A stretch of DNA of 33,256 nt from Candidatus Mediterraneibacter merdavium (GTDB taxonomy: Bacteria; Bacillota; Clostridia; Lachnospirales; Lachnospiraceae). The stretch covers positions 1-33,256 of the forward strand of contig DWYT01000106.1 of the NCBI GenBank assembly GCA_019118545.1. Reading direction: 5' to 3'. Every line of letters begins with the position of its first letter. The first letter of the stretch is position 1. The notes beneath the pieces were generated by a model. That model did no database searches, was not told the DNA's origin, and worked only from the letters and a program-made list of their open reading frames with translations. This document shows positions 2,136-11,785 of the stretch, one piece after another. A program made the translations under genes and the position numbers.

Positions 2136-2493
2136 GTAACAGTTCAGCCATTTTATTCGATCGCATTTCTTTGTGATAACGTCTGGAAGCGGAGGAGATT
2201 TTGAAATACAGTCAGCGGCGGGGAAAGTTTCGCTATTCCGTTACGGAATCCGGGAATATCTAACAGGCTGAGAAGCTGTTTAAAAACAAAGCAATGCGAG
2301 GAGCAACTCGTTTCACTCAGACAATCTCCTCACACTGCTTAACAACATCTCCTCATCCCGGTAAGATATTCCATCAGATTCCTTCAAAGTCACAGCTCCC
2401 TCCTCCCCGCCGCTGACTGCTTCCTCTAACTCATCGTCCGCTTCCTGCTGCACAGAGTGGAAATGCCGCCGAATCAAACGACTGAACTGTTAC
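2136..2493. repeat. 358-nt nested palindrome (large hairpin element A)
   Basis: This fills most of the gene-free stretch between the rpiR terminator and the rpsB promoter. Paired segments from outside in: 2136-2147 with 2482-2493 (12 bp), 2155-2159 with 2470-2474, 2163-2169 with 2460-2466, 2185-2192 with 2438-2445, 2209-2224 with 2404-2419 (16 bp perfect), 2245-2250 with 2377-2382, 2253-2261 with 2364-2372, 2289-2293 with 2336-2340, and 2298-2303 with 2326-2331. The apex reads CAACTCG, TTTCA, CTCAGACAAT (2304-2325). No convincing ORF. It has no hallmark of an insertion sequence. It could be a structured RNA or a palindromic repeat; the function is unknown. Confidence 0.8.
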
Positions 2494-2522
2494 GCTTGCT
2501 TTGCCTGTATCCTCCCGCAGAA

Positions 2523-2550
2523 AAAGAAGACGCGGGCGGGCGTCTTCTTT
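2523..2550 (-). terminator. Terminator after rpiR
   Basis: An 11-bp stem (2523-2533 with 2540-2550, GC-rich top) is followed on the minus strand by TTTTTCT. It closes the nan operon. Confidence 0.85.
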
Positions 2551-2567
2551 ATTCCGGCATGATATCT

Positions 2568-3422
2568 TTAATACAGTTTTTCAACTACTGCTTTGGATGT
2601 TTTCTTTAAATTATCCTCCGATTCCTTATGATAACGGTGGAAATACTCTTGAAACAGGAGATCTACCATATAGAGCTGGCTCATCTTTACCCCCAGTGAC
2701 CCGCCGTCCAGAGGCGCCTCATCTGCGCCGCACAAGAGAATCTCGTCAGCATATACCGCCAGCGGTGATTTCCGGAAGCGGGTGATCGCCACGATCTTTG
2801 CCCCTGCTTCTTTCGCGATCTCCGCCACATACACAGTGTCTTTCGTCGCCCCTGAATACGAGAGAATAACCATCACATCTTTTTCCGTCATCATAGCCGC
2901 TGACATGGCCTGCATATGGGAATCTTCGATACAGGAGGTCTTGCCTGTAATTCTCAGGAATTTATTGTTCGCCTCCCTTGCCGTAAGAAGGCTGTGCCCG
3001 ATCCCAAAGAAAGAAACCCTCTCCGCATCATGTATCATCTCTGCGATCCGCTCGATCTGGCTTGGAACAACAAGCTGCCTCGTGGCATTTAACGCGTTGA
3101 TATGATTGGCAAGCACTTTATCCGCCATAAGGGAAGAATCATTCACCGCTTTTATATTCTGATCCGGCGGATTCGGGACATCTCCCTCCGACAGACAGAA
3201 GGAAAGGTTCATCTTAAACTCCTGATACCCTTTCGCCTTCATGGTCCTGCAAAACCGGTATACACTTGCCTCGGCGACCCCACATTCATCCGCCACATCC
3301 GAAATGGACATAAAAAGTACCTTTTCCGGTGAAGATATGACAAAATCCGCAACTTTTTTCTCCGCTTTTGTGAATCGGCTGTATGAAGTCTTGATATTGA
3401 ACAGAATGTTATTCTCCCGCAT
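2568..3422 (-). CDS. RpiR-family regulator, probable sialic-acid (NanR-like) sensor
   Basis: A 284-residue transcription factor of the RpiR family. Residues 1-77 form the HTH_6 domain (helix-turn-helix about 38-66, with SISDVADECGVAEASVYRF). Residues about 125-260 form a sugar-isomerase (SIS) domain that in this family binds a phosphosugar; SYSGATKDT (188-196) is the SIS phosphate-binding motif. It is the last gene of the sialic-acid operon, 38 nt behind the ROK kinase, so it most likely senses a pathway intermediate such as ManNAc-6-P or GlcNAc-6-P and controls the operon promoter near 9290. The ligand is inferred from context. Confidence 0.9.
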   Translation of the reverse strand: MRENNILFNIKTSYSRFTKAEKKVADFVISSPEKVLFMSISDVADECGVAEASVYRFCRTMKAKGYQEFKMNLSFCLSEGDVPNPPDQNIKAVNDSSLMADKVLANHINALNATRQLVVPSQIERIAEMIHDAERVSFFGIGHSLLTAREANNKFLRITGKTSCIEDSHMQAMSAAMMTEKDVMVILSYSGATKDTVYVAEIAKEAGAKIVAITRFRKSPLAVYADEILLCGADEAPLDGGSLGVKMSQLYMVDLLFQEYFHRYHKESEDNLKKTSKAVVEKLY

Positions 3423-3460
3423 GGCATCCCCCTGTGCTTTTCACTTCTATACGGACCACA

Positions 3461-4354
3461 TCACAAAGGTCCGGTCTCGATCAGATGGGCCGCGGCGCCA
3501 TACATGCCTGCGCAGTTGCCAAGCATAGCCTTTTTGACAGTTGTTTTACGGTAGCTTTCCATCAGGTGTATGTCAAGCAGTTCCCGGAGCTTTTCAAGGA
3601 CATACTCCTGCTCCATAACTCCTCCGCCAAGAATAACGCAGGAAGGGTTCAGCACATGGATCAGGGATGTCAGGCCATAGACAATCTCTCTGATCCACTC
3701 ATCCACGATTTCCCTTACGCCGCTGCGTTCCAGATCTCTAAAGATAGCTCTTCCATTTGTCAGGCTGCTGTCATAATCCCGGACTCTTTTTACAAGCGCC
3801 GTAACTGAGGCATACCGCTCATAGCACCCGCTGAAAATATCTTTCCCCGGATCTCTGTCTTCCGGATGTACCACGACCGCACCCGCCTCTCCGGCGGAAA
3901 AGCTGCTGCCTTCATAAAGCTTTCCTTTTACAAACACTGCCCCTCCGACTCCAGTGCCATAGGTCAGGCAGAGAAAATCCTCCTCGCCCTGTCCCGCCCC
4001 GTAACGCGCTTCTCCGAGCGCCGCTGCATTCACGTCGTTGATTACAGCCGCCGGCTTACCAAATCTGCTTTCTATTATACTCTTAATTTCCATGCCTGTA
4101 TACCCCGGAATATTATCATTTGCATAGATAATACGCCCTTTAACGGAGTCCACCTGACCCGCAGTGCTGATTCCTATCCCGGTGAACACATGTCTGTTTT
4201 CATATTCTTTTATGATTGTTTCAATCAGGGCGACCACATGGCCGCCCCCCTTTTCCGCCTCGGTGGGATATTCCCTGATATCCTCCAGCGTCCCGTCACA
4301 GTAAACTCCTGATTTCACTGCCGTTCCGCCGACATCCAGCGTCATGATCCTCAT
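3461..4354 (-). CDS. nanK: ROK-family sugar kinase, probable N-acetylmannosamine kinase
   Basis: A 297-residue ROK kinase that would phosphorylate N-acetylmannosamine at C6 using ATP. The N-terminal phosphate loop is DVGGT (7-11), the catalytic aspartate is in ND (106-107), and GTGVGG (133-138) is the second nucleotide-binding loop. Unusual: the zinc motif typical of ROK proteins (GH followed by CxCGxxGCxE) is degenerate. GEAGA stands where GExGH is expected, and only the cysteine of GCYE (C177) remains. It starts 16 nt after nanE with GAGGAGG 7 nt before the ATG. The substrate is inferred from position after nanA and nanE; ROK members also act on glucose or fructose. Confidence 0.82.
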   Translation of the reverse strand: MRIMTLDVGGTAVKSGVYCDGTLEDIREYPTEAEKGGGHVVALIETIIKEYENRHVFTGIGISTAGQVDSVKGRIIYANDNIPGYTGMEIKSIIESRFGKPAAVINDVNAAALGEARYGAGQGEEDFLCLTYGTGVGGAVFVKGKLYEGSSFSAGEAGAVVVHPEDRDPGKDIFSGCYERYASVTALVKRVRDYDSSLTNGRAIFRDLERSGVREIVDEWIREIVYGLTSLIHVLNPSCVILGGGVMEQEYVLEKLRELLDIHLMESYRKTTVKKAMLGNCAGMYGAAAHLIETGPL

Positions 4355-4370
4355 GCGGATTCCTCCTCAC

Positions 4371-10999: not shown

Positions 11000-11029
11000 A
11001 ATATAACAAAAATCAACAGCCTGTGTCAA
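11000..11029 (-). promoter_or_regulatory. SigA-type promoter of guaB
   Basis: Consensus -35 TTGACA (11024-11029) with TATATT (11000-11005) at 18 nt, or TTATAT (11001-11006) at 17 nt. Confidence 0.85.
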
Positions 11030-11140
11030 CCATTTTCCCGGCGGATGTCTCAATTTTAAGTTGATTTATTTTAAGGTTGATTTATAAGTGTATCTTATGG
11101 GTATCTGCTATCGTCTTGTCGAGGATGAGAGATGACGTCC

Positions 11141-11276
11141 GGCGTAAGAAGCACATGTCCCTTGCGGCCACGCTCCCGCTCGGGCCACAACACAGGGGCA
11201 CATAGGAGCGCAAAAAACGCGCTCCAAGTGCCCGTGTTGTTCTACGGGCCGCTTCGTGACATGTGCTCCTTACGCC
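11141..11276. repeat. 136-nt large hairpin (element B)
   Basis: Nested inverted repeat: 11141-11148 with 11269-11276, 11151-11159 with 11258-11266, 11164-11169 with 11247-11252, 11187-11193 with 11234-11240, 11196-11201 with 11228-11233, and the apex 11205-11211 with 11219-11225 around an A-rich loop. It lies between the guaB promoter and the groEL 3' region. No T-run follows it, so it is not an ordinary terminator. It does not share the apical motif of the other two palindromes. Confidence 0.8.
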
Positions 11277-11303
11277 TGCGCTCCCCTCCCCGGCAAACTT
11301 GCA

Positions 11304-11413
11304 ATCGCACATTTAATCTGCAGTTGCCGAAGAAACAAAAAAACAGCCGATCAGGCTGTATCTTTTGAAAACATTACCGAACGGTTGTGTGGGGTGATGA
11401 GACGACTTCGGAA
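11304..11413 (+). repeat. 110-bp direct repeat, copy 1
   Basis: Nearly identical to 11450-11559 (three substitutions that I can see, no indels). It contains the 6-bp hairpin ACAGCC/GGCTGT followed by ATCTTTT. Unlike copy 2, it has no matching right arm. Confidence 0.9.
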
Positions 11414-11449
11414 TAATATACAGCGCATGACAGACACACCCCTCTTTAC

Positions 11450-11559
11450 ATCGTACATTTAATCTGCAGTTGCCGAAGAAACGAAAAAACAGCCGATCAG
11501 GCTGTATCTTTCGAAAACATTACCGAACGGTTGTGTGGGGTGATGAGACGACTTCGGAA
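11450..11559 (+). repeat. 110-bp direct repeat, copy 2
   Basis: Second copy, offset 146 bp from copy 1 (36 bp between copies). Most of it forms the left arm of the palindrome 11470-11785. Confidence 0.9.
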
Positions 11560-11785
11560 CAGGATGCAGAAAAACTTAAAATCTGCCACCATGCGTTAAA
11601 GTTTGCATCGGGATTGTCTGAGGCAAAGCCGAGTTGCCCGATGCAAACTTTGATCTTAGCATGATCGCAGATTTTCTAGTTTTTCCAGCCTGTGGAGCGG
11701 AGTCTCATCAGTTCACACATCCGCGCGGGATATGTCTTGAATGATATTGCCTGATCGGCTGTTATATTTTTCATTTTCTCGGCAA
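11470..11785. repeat. 316-nt nested palindrome (large hairpin element C)
   Basis: It lies directly downstream of groEL. Paired segments from outside in: 11470-11476 with 11779-11785, 11489-11502 with 11749-11762 (14 bp perfect), 11541-11549 with 11702-11710, 11578-11586 with 11667-11675, and 11598-11612 with 11637-11651 (15 bp perfect). The apex (11613-11636), read on the minus strand, is CAACTCG, GCTTTGC, CTCAGACAAT: the same motif as element A on a different stem. The groEL transcript would run straight into it, so it may also end that mRNA. Confidence 0.82.

Follow-up and report, generated by a model that had tools for sequence, protein, structure and literature searches.

Among the described dispersed repeats of bacteria, those most readily compared with the elements reported here are the repetitive extragenic palindromes (REP), bacterial interspersed mosaic elements (BIME) and REP doublets forming hairpins (REPIN), together with the REP-associated tyrosine transposases (RAYT). 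According to the cited papers, the transposase TnpA-REP reads folded single-stranded DNA strand-specifically via loops and irregularities (PMC8266576), REPIN spacers often carry compensatory changes (PMC3116915), and the IS66 elements ISPpa5a and ISPpa7 have 8-bp repeats (PMC3281130). We analysed a stretch of 33,256 nucleotides from Candidatus Mediterraneibacter merdavium (contig DWYT01000106.1; “the window”), in which two distant palindromic sites carry the same apical motif. Both sites are copies of one dispersed non-coding palindromic family, which is absent from Rfam and not an artefact. By its anatomy this family, whose members are long rods of fixed internal loops and free stems, is a novel variant among palindromic dispersed repeats.

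Fixed loops on variable stems

A pattern search of the window detected the apical motif as CAACTCGTTTCACTCAGACAAT at site 1 and as CAACTCGGCTTTGCCTCAGACAAT at site 2, both at the positions given in the initial annotation. When the window was shuffled 100 times with its dinucleotides preserved, the pattern matched 0 times, and the two sites are thus beyond chance expectation. The closing stems had been described as differing in sequence while both pairing, which was borne out, and they extend beyond the stems described at that time. At site 2 the inner stem comprises 15 bp (AAAGTTTGCATCGGG / CCCGATGCAAACTTT), with more stems and loops farther out. The two sites comprise the following features.

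2304..2325, plus strand: apical motif of site 1 (pattern match)
11613..11636, minus strand: apical motif of site 2 (pattern match)
11637..11651, minus strand: 5' arm of the inner stem of site 2, AAAGTTTGCATCGGG (pairing)
11598..11612, minus strand: 3' arm of the inner stem of site 2, CCCGATGCAAACTTT (pairing)
2258..2370, plus strand: rod core of site 1 on the CAACTCG strand, the folding strand presumably being the minus strand (covariance model R1, 91.6 bits, E 3.3e-23)
11568..11681, minus strand: rod core of site 2 on the CAACTCG strand, the folding strand presumably being the plus strand (covariance model R1, 105.3 bits, E 4.2e-27)

The sites are not the two isolated hairpins that had been assumed but the tips of long rods belonging to a dispersed and partly mobile family. 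Based on the folding of longer stretches, the copies are rods of about 330-360 nt in which several invariant internal loops alternate with stems of free sequence. From the tip outward these loops are CAACTC/TCAGACAAT, CTAAAAACA/TTAACG, AACTAA/TTAAGTT and TCCGCTCCA/TTCCGAAGTC, and copies of the type termed B below have an extra outer loop, AAGACATATTCTG/CAGAAACGTTTTCGA. The stems between the loops are wholly different across the subfamilies of one genome, their pairing being retained.

Two-sided compensatory changes were found at 28 of 31 core pairs in a set of 29 cores. The tip letters CAACTC and TCAGACAA were invariant in this set, partly by construction because it had been gathered via a search for the tip; among copies found without the tip filter, tip variants are present. 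In comparisons of orthologous copies 4/6, 3/4, 8/9, 0/1, 8/8 and 8/10 double changes stayed Watson-Crick, while none had occurred in a Marinobacter pair. (Two comparison steps used 91/99 and 47/80 loci, cut or repeated loci being dropped.) The proposal that a fixed motif on variable compensating stems in Lachnospiraceae reflects selection on a folded nucleic acid is therefore supported. Its more specific version, a conserved RNA fold, holds with regard to the fold and not with regard to RNA, since a single DNA strand fits equally well. The hairpin may also be recognised by a protein, as had been suggested, and no binding protein was identified.

The initial annotation had named a genome search finding these two copies alone as speaking against it. 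The own genome (2.77 Mb in 168 contigs, 89.6% complete) contains 21 instances of the exact motif and 0 of the reversed control pattern. The covariance model R1, derived from a diverse set of 29 cores after exclusion of one out of 30 (L037) with a broken right arm, detected 67 copies in this genome at E<=0.001 among the 150 of 481 first-look candidates that were scored, and it also matched both window sites. Furthermore, R1 matches were present in 29 of 61 relatives, namely in 28/37 of the same genus and in 1/24 outside it; high counts per genome are lower bounds because scoring was held to 61 candidates per genome. In the own genome 24 of the 67 copies form 12 inverted pairs, all with the plus copy preceding the minus copy, and among the 43 single copies 19 are flanked on both sides by genes running in the CAACTCG direction and 4 by genes running in the opposite direction. 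Composites of about 750 bp, in which a GCGCGGC...GCCGCGC hairpin separates a rod from an inverted rod of another subfamily, were observed in L133, L146, L122, L141 and L144. An autonomous version was not found within the rods; the open reading frames (ORFs) between inverted pairs appeared spurious, and the half elements L070, L078 and L081 have ordinary genes as neighbours.

The initial annotation also knew of no named RNA family with this motif, and the comparison with Rfam gave no matching one. At the gathering score of Rfam 15 the sole match in the window was an FMN riboswitch (see below), the rod family being unmatched, and at E<=1 no fitting family was obtained for 10 and 7 carrier loci, where microRNA models touched long hairpins below threshold. 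The tip sequence strings did not occur in the texts of PubMed Central, and among the papers listed there for repeats, REPINs, terminators, IS66 and palindromes none describes the rod family, subscription papers being outside this coverage in both cases.

Constraint on one strand

In 121 distinct cores read on the CAACTCG strand, 3189 of 3509 pair cells are Watson-Crick, and the other cells include A.C (137), C.T (79) and C.C (24) as compared with G.T (44), A.G (11) and G.G (3). At pairs that are at least 85% Watson-Crick, C-sided mismatches outnumber G-sided ones by 182 to 55. Clustering left ratios of 45 vs 17 (43 clusters) and 14 vs 2 (19 clusters). The corresponding counts were 48 vs 11 where a gene ends upstream and 21 vs 1 in the 19 copies flanked by a gene end solely on the opposite strand; since the asymmetry appears in both gene contexts, it tracks the motif and not the direction of the gene. 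C-sided mismatches correspond to G.U, G.A or G.G on the complement, where G.U and G.A pairs are tolerated. This mismatch pattern places the constraint on the strand complementary to CAACTCG, irrespective of the direction of the neighbouring gene.

The folding energies were compared in 195 distinct cores, taken from all loci gathered and having at least 9 of 13 arm bases pairing and enough flank. The complement is the more stable fold in 189/195 of them with RNA parameters and in 176/195 with DNA parameters. Its tip consists of ATTGTCTGA, a stem and GAGTTG, with a closing pair that is G-C in 156, A-T in 18 and C-G in 12 cases (186/192), and 105 of 135 triloops are GNA. Mini-hairpins of the GCGAAGC type and tandem G.A pairs in a Y-GA-R context are unusually stable in DNA. 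The CAACTCG strand, initially regarded as the folded one, is hence the poorer choice, and the motif is better read as ATTGTCTGA[G..C]GAGTTG.

Compensatory change is usually taken as proof of a functional RNA. Given a strand asymmetry opposite to the gene strand, in DNA that is dispersed and partly mobile, the compensatory signal may mark a folded single DNA strand. By analogy with known transposases, and at about even confidence, we favour the reading that the rods are REP/MITE-like elements (MITE, miniature inverted-repeat transposable element) selected as one folded single strand that is read in trans by an enzyme through the fixed loops. The putative enzyme would copy or move the element in trans, reading the complement strand in its folded and single-stranded form. 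Recognition would proceed through the fixed loops, with the tip ATTGTCTGA[stem-GNA loop]GAGTTG, similar to the way in which TnpA-REP or the IS200/IS605 transposases read hairpins. We propose that such a reading of the loops of one folded strand would explain why the loops are fixed, why the stems drift in pairs and why the fit is strand-specific. At gene ends, copies would be harmless and would hence persist, which is proposed as the cause of the gene-end bias. If this reading is true, the mismatch asymmetry provides a simple computational test for the strand that is read in palindromic repeats.

Copies at stop codons and transposed copies

The copies are divided into two types according to their ends. 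Site 2 belongs to type B, which has ATCTGGATTTGTCGGGG/CCCCGGCAAATGCAGAT ends and for which no target duplication was seen.

11462..11792, minus strand: site 2, type B element extending over about 331 bp from the stop codon of groEL to ...CAACTGCAGAT; ends approximate, matched by eye to ATCTGGATTTGTCGGGG / CCCCGGCAAATGCAGAT of fresh copies in other species
11793..13415, minus strand: groEL, whose stop codon borders site 2 (PF00118, E 9.5e-88)

Type B starts at, or a few nucleotides from, the stop codon of a gene. In 23 of 41 cases the ends of rod-bearing type B copies fall within the range of -1 to +4 nt relative to a stop codon; look-alike ends found without a rod do so in 8 of 51, some of these 8 being groEL ends. 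An upstream gene end on the CAACTCG strand is present in 130 of the 195 cores, its distance to the tip peaking at 160-179 nt (50/130), whereas the 64 cores with a gene end on the other side have no peak (5/64 at this distance). The anchoring to stop codons raises a question of target choice in its own right.

This placement could alternatively indicate a host RNA function. Type B would then be a conserved 3'-end structure (of groEL, glmM, glyA, htpG, degV and others), a long RNA rod serving in termination, protection or processing of the mRNA, or an antisense RNA with its start beyond the gene, and type A would be MITEs that picked up the rod. The anchoring, the one main orientation and the occupation of the same gene ends in different species are in line with this explanation. 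Beyond groEL, 12 gene families of the genus, including glmM, degV, xdhA, glyA and htpG, have copies in 2-3 genomes each, and one more was found in Marinobacter; the sample was gathered by motif, and these shared-gene counts carry no chance baseline. Two clusters of four members were set aside, with one assembly for all members and ORFs overlapping the elements. At the same gene end, some pairs consist of rods that are evidently related and have undergone compensatory changes in place, which likewise favours a host function.

However, the presence of the element is patchy. Among 30 groEL loci chosen regardless of it, several of which are cut by contig ends, an R1 match was found on the 3' side in 7 (a match on the 5' side in L242 was not counted), and in related species (L232, L235, L239, L244) this side is occupied by a plain terminator-like hairpin instead. 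Six of the 7 copies have the orientation of the window copy, while that in G067 is reversed. The stem family often tracks the genome and not the gene, as in the degV and xdhA pairs, whose unrelated stems are each typical of their own genome; thus, inheritance and replacement or re-insertion both occur. Taking furthermore into account that the strand favoured by the mismatch asymmetry is antisense to the upstream gene, without following gene direction, and that the arms are not enriched in terminator-like sites, a host RNA function seems unlikely. Intrinsic terminators (a G+C stem with a T run) were detected in the arms of 1/89 gene-end copies and of 3/89 after shuffling. A role as terminator carrier was accordingly rejected, though the one positive copy is that at window site 2, and the idea that type B resides in the loop of a host terminator was dropped because fresh copies have longer ends. 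In the neighbourhood of site 2, tandem units of the 3' part of the element occupy 11343-11505 (minus strand), with a period of 146 bp and a terminator-like hairpin, ACAGCCTGATCGGCTGTTTTTT, in each unit. A further long palindrome, GTAAGGAGCACATGTC...GACATGTGCTTCTTAC, precedes guaB at 11140-11270 (minus strand) and has no R1 match.

Site 1 belongs to type A, whose ends are GTAACAGTTCAGYC; these GTAACAGTTCAG inverted ends comprise 24 nt with few mismatches.

2136..2493, plus strand: site 1, complete type A element of 358 bp, a MITE-like long palindrome with inverted ends GTAACAGTTCAGCC... / ...GACTGAACTGTTAC; empty site in the relatives G075 and G032 (L428, L429)
2136..2159, plus strand: left terminal inverted repeat, GTAACAGTTCAGCCATTTTATTCG
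2470..2493, minus strand: right terminal inverted repeat, GTAACAGTTCAGTCGTTTGATTCG
2128..2135, no strand: left 8-bp copy of the target duplication, GCCTGCTT, with 7/8 letters equal to the right copy
2494..2501, no strand: right 8-bp copy of the target duplication, GCTTGCTT
1178..2041, minus strand: rpsB (ribosomal protein S2), downstream of site 1 (PF00318, E 4.2e-105)
2568..3422, minus strand: RpiR-type regulator with SIS domain, upstream of site 1 (PF01418, PF01380)

Type A copies transposed as units. They show the characteristics of MITEs, being short and non-coding and having terminal inverted repeats, a target duplication and an empty site in relatives. Homology among 10 copies of the own genome fades beyond the element ends. 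An 8-bp duplication with at most 1 mismatch flanks 5/5 copies with at most 3 substitutions per end, and 6/23 if decayed ends are included, while in cross-copy controls at most 2 mismatches occurred in 0.2%; the duplication is exact in L012, L021, L073 and L076. In G075 and G032 the region upstream of rpsB is continuous without the element, both flanks being common, and an R1 match was found at 1 of 30 rpsB loci, 29 being without it. The initial annotation had also named a match to a known insertion sequence (IS) end or an Rfam family as speaking against it. Rfam yielded none. The copy at site 1 is indeed part of an IS-like insertion with terminal inverted repeats and target duplication, in which the motif is central and not terminal.

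IS66 ends begin with GTAA, as do those of type A, and these ends together with the 8-bp duplication suggest an IS66-like transposase for type A. The type A ends resemble those of an IS66-like DDE element, which suggests that such an element can carry the rod as a passenger. An autonomous partner of type A was not found, no search having been aimed at IS66 genes, and no IS66-like gene was recognised by eye in 10 viral contigs bearing the type A end sequence. In the phage-like contigs L459 and L461, inverted sequences of the GTAACAGTTCAGC type are clustered close to a repressor-like gene.

The ends and 8-bp duplications of type A are those of a normal MITE, and the rods might be ordinary MITEs with a palindromic interior, in which the complementarity of the arms arises from template switching in replication without selection and the loops are merely inherited. 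Correction of quasipalindromes would yield paired changes without selection. In addition, rod-less mini-elements of 73 bp (L123:2184-2256) and 87 bp (L355:2607-2693), two of five mini-elements examined, have the same GTAACAGTTCAG ends and exact 8-bp duplications and hence move without the rod; they constitute a separate small MITE family. Yet arm correction would erase the mismatched loops, in whose letters conservation is highest, including in the comparison of Mediterraneibacter with Marinobacter. Moreover, correction is symmetric and does not predict one-strand C-sided mismatches, and type B lacks both type A-like ends and the duplication. We therefore consider this explanation very unlikely.

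Elsewhere in the window, the FMN riboswitch (22262-22377, minus strand, 112 bits) lies upstream of the gene for the substrate component of an ECF transporter (21503-22147) and appears ordinary.

The presumed enzyme, other phyla and known systems

Several points weigh against the preferred reading, in which an enzyme reads the rods in the form of a single folded strand. No mobilising enzyme was found. Of the 10 carrier genomes tested, 3 (G083, G084, G089) lack Y1_Tnp (the REP/IS200 family), which may reflect the incompleteness of metagenome-assembled genomes (MAGs), and R1 had 0 matches within about 3 kb in 20 Y1 loci, 19 of which hold RAYT-like genes. The strand asymmetry, read from sequence comparison, is a statistical one among related copies, whose kinship is removed by clustering only partly. 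For type A, the 8-bp duplication is indicative of a DDE transposase, which would have no need for a single-stranded fold. Finally, old groEL copies in G036 and G002 have paired stems but a degraded tip, GAACTC..TCAAACAC; paired stems outlasting the tip motif could indicate that it is the stem which the host maintains.

Many genomes of the genus encode a single copy of a RAYT-like Y1 transposase with about 260-290 aa (L189-L207), and Y1 genes occur in most, not all, of its carriers. No RAYT-like gene was detected in the own genome (G000, 67 copies), which has one IS200-type copy, or in G035 (19 copies). By analogy, Y1/RAYT would be the natural candidate for the enzyme, but it fails as a general answer. 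That the rods constitute a REPIN system proper, i.e. unusually long REPs moved by such a resident single-copy RAYT, we rank as the least likely explanation, since neither the frequency of RAYT-like genes of this size in the genus nor the REPIN traits of convergent pairs, gene-end placement and compensated hairpins (PMC3116915, PMC3733652) accounts for the two RAYT-free carriers, the absence of rods near the 19 RAYT-like genes, the lack of Y1 in 3/10 carriers in and outside the genus, the lack of a recognised GTAG foot and a length about 10 times that of REPs. If the preferred reading is true, cultured carriers (Mediterraneibacter catenae, Marinobacter) make a search for the enzyme direct.

An exact-motif scan of assembled genome contigs gave at least 112 stretches, 80 of which were inspected for pairing arms. 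Among the matches listed, those with pairing arms outside Mediterraneibacter were from Marinobacter (at least 4 records), an Anaerocolumna MAG, Mucispirillum MAGs and a Desulfobacula MAG, the names of MAGs being those of the records. The cross-phylum step used 56 of 120 loci; R1 gave E-values of 7.5e-11 for Anaerocolumna, 3e-7 to 1e-4 for Marinobacter, with inverted pairs in two records, and 0.004 for Mucispirillum, where the tip alone matched. Exact copies numbered 10 and 9 in Mucispirillum MAGs, 12 in Clostridium sp. Marseille-P3244 and 3 in Marinobacter sp. C7. The outer loops differ in these lineages, and the tip is the common part. Several single matches, for instance in Parabacteroides, Burkholderiales, Vibrio and Planococcus, had no pairing arms and were attributed to chance. 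The same applies to 8/8 tip matches in viral contigs, and a phage origin was rejected. Since the exact motif was found in 1 of 369 gammaproteobacterial genomes sampled, which is the Marinobacter centre genome itself, it is rare outside the genus. It is possible, though on balance doubtful, that the rods represent a widespread class of mobile DNA in Firmicutes, Gammaproteobacteria and Deferribacterota. Such a class would replicate via one folded single strand with free stems, its universal tip of ATTGTCTGA, a short stem with GNA loop and GAGTTG (tandem G.A pairs possible) being read by an enzyme, and would include a subtype inserting at stop codons.

In comparison with known systems, IS66-family MITEs share the 8-bp target duplication and the lack of an internal gene, whereas the interior is structurally constrained here and type B is without type A ends. 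RUP and Correia are stem-loop repeat families of bacterial genomes. Such families, e.g. ERIC, resemble the rods as intergenic repeats folding into a common structure (PMC2267715), but keep their stem sequence, while the stems of the rods are unrelated between subfamilies and the loops are invariant. The CGTC-tagged REPs are likewise multi-phylum palindromic repeats with inverted dimers for which no dedicated transposase was found, though with stems of 8-9 bp, loops of 4-5 nt and other sequences (PMC3733652). With REP, BIME and REPIN and their RAYTs the rods have in common that they are dispersed non-coding palindromes in several phyla, mostly extragenic, often in inverted pairs and with compensatory changes (PMC3116915, PMC8266576, PMC3733652). 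Recognition of a folded single strand through loops or bulges is strand-specific in these systems, and the strand-asymmetric mismatches of the rods are what such recognition would predict. The rods differ in the absence of a recognised GTAG foot and of an adjoining RAYT, with Y1 missing from some carriers. In addition, they measure about 350 nt as compared with 20-40 nt (REP) or about 100 nt (REPIN), contain a ladder of fixed internal loops and start at stop codons, and their type A has 8-bp target duplications.

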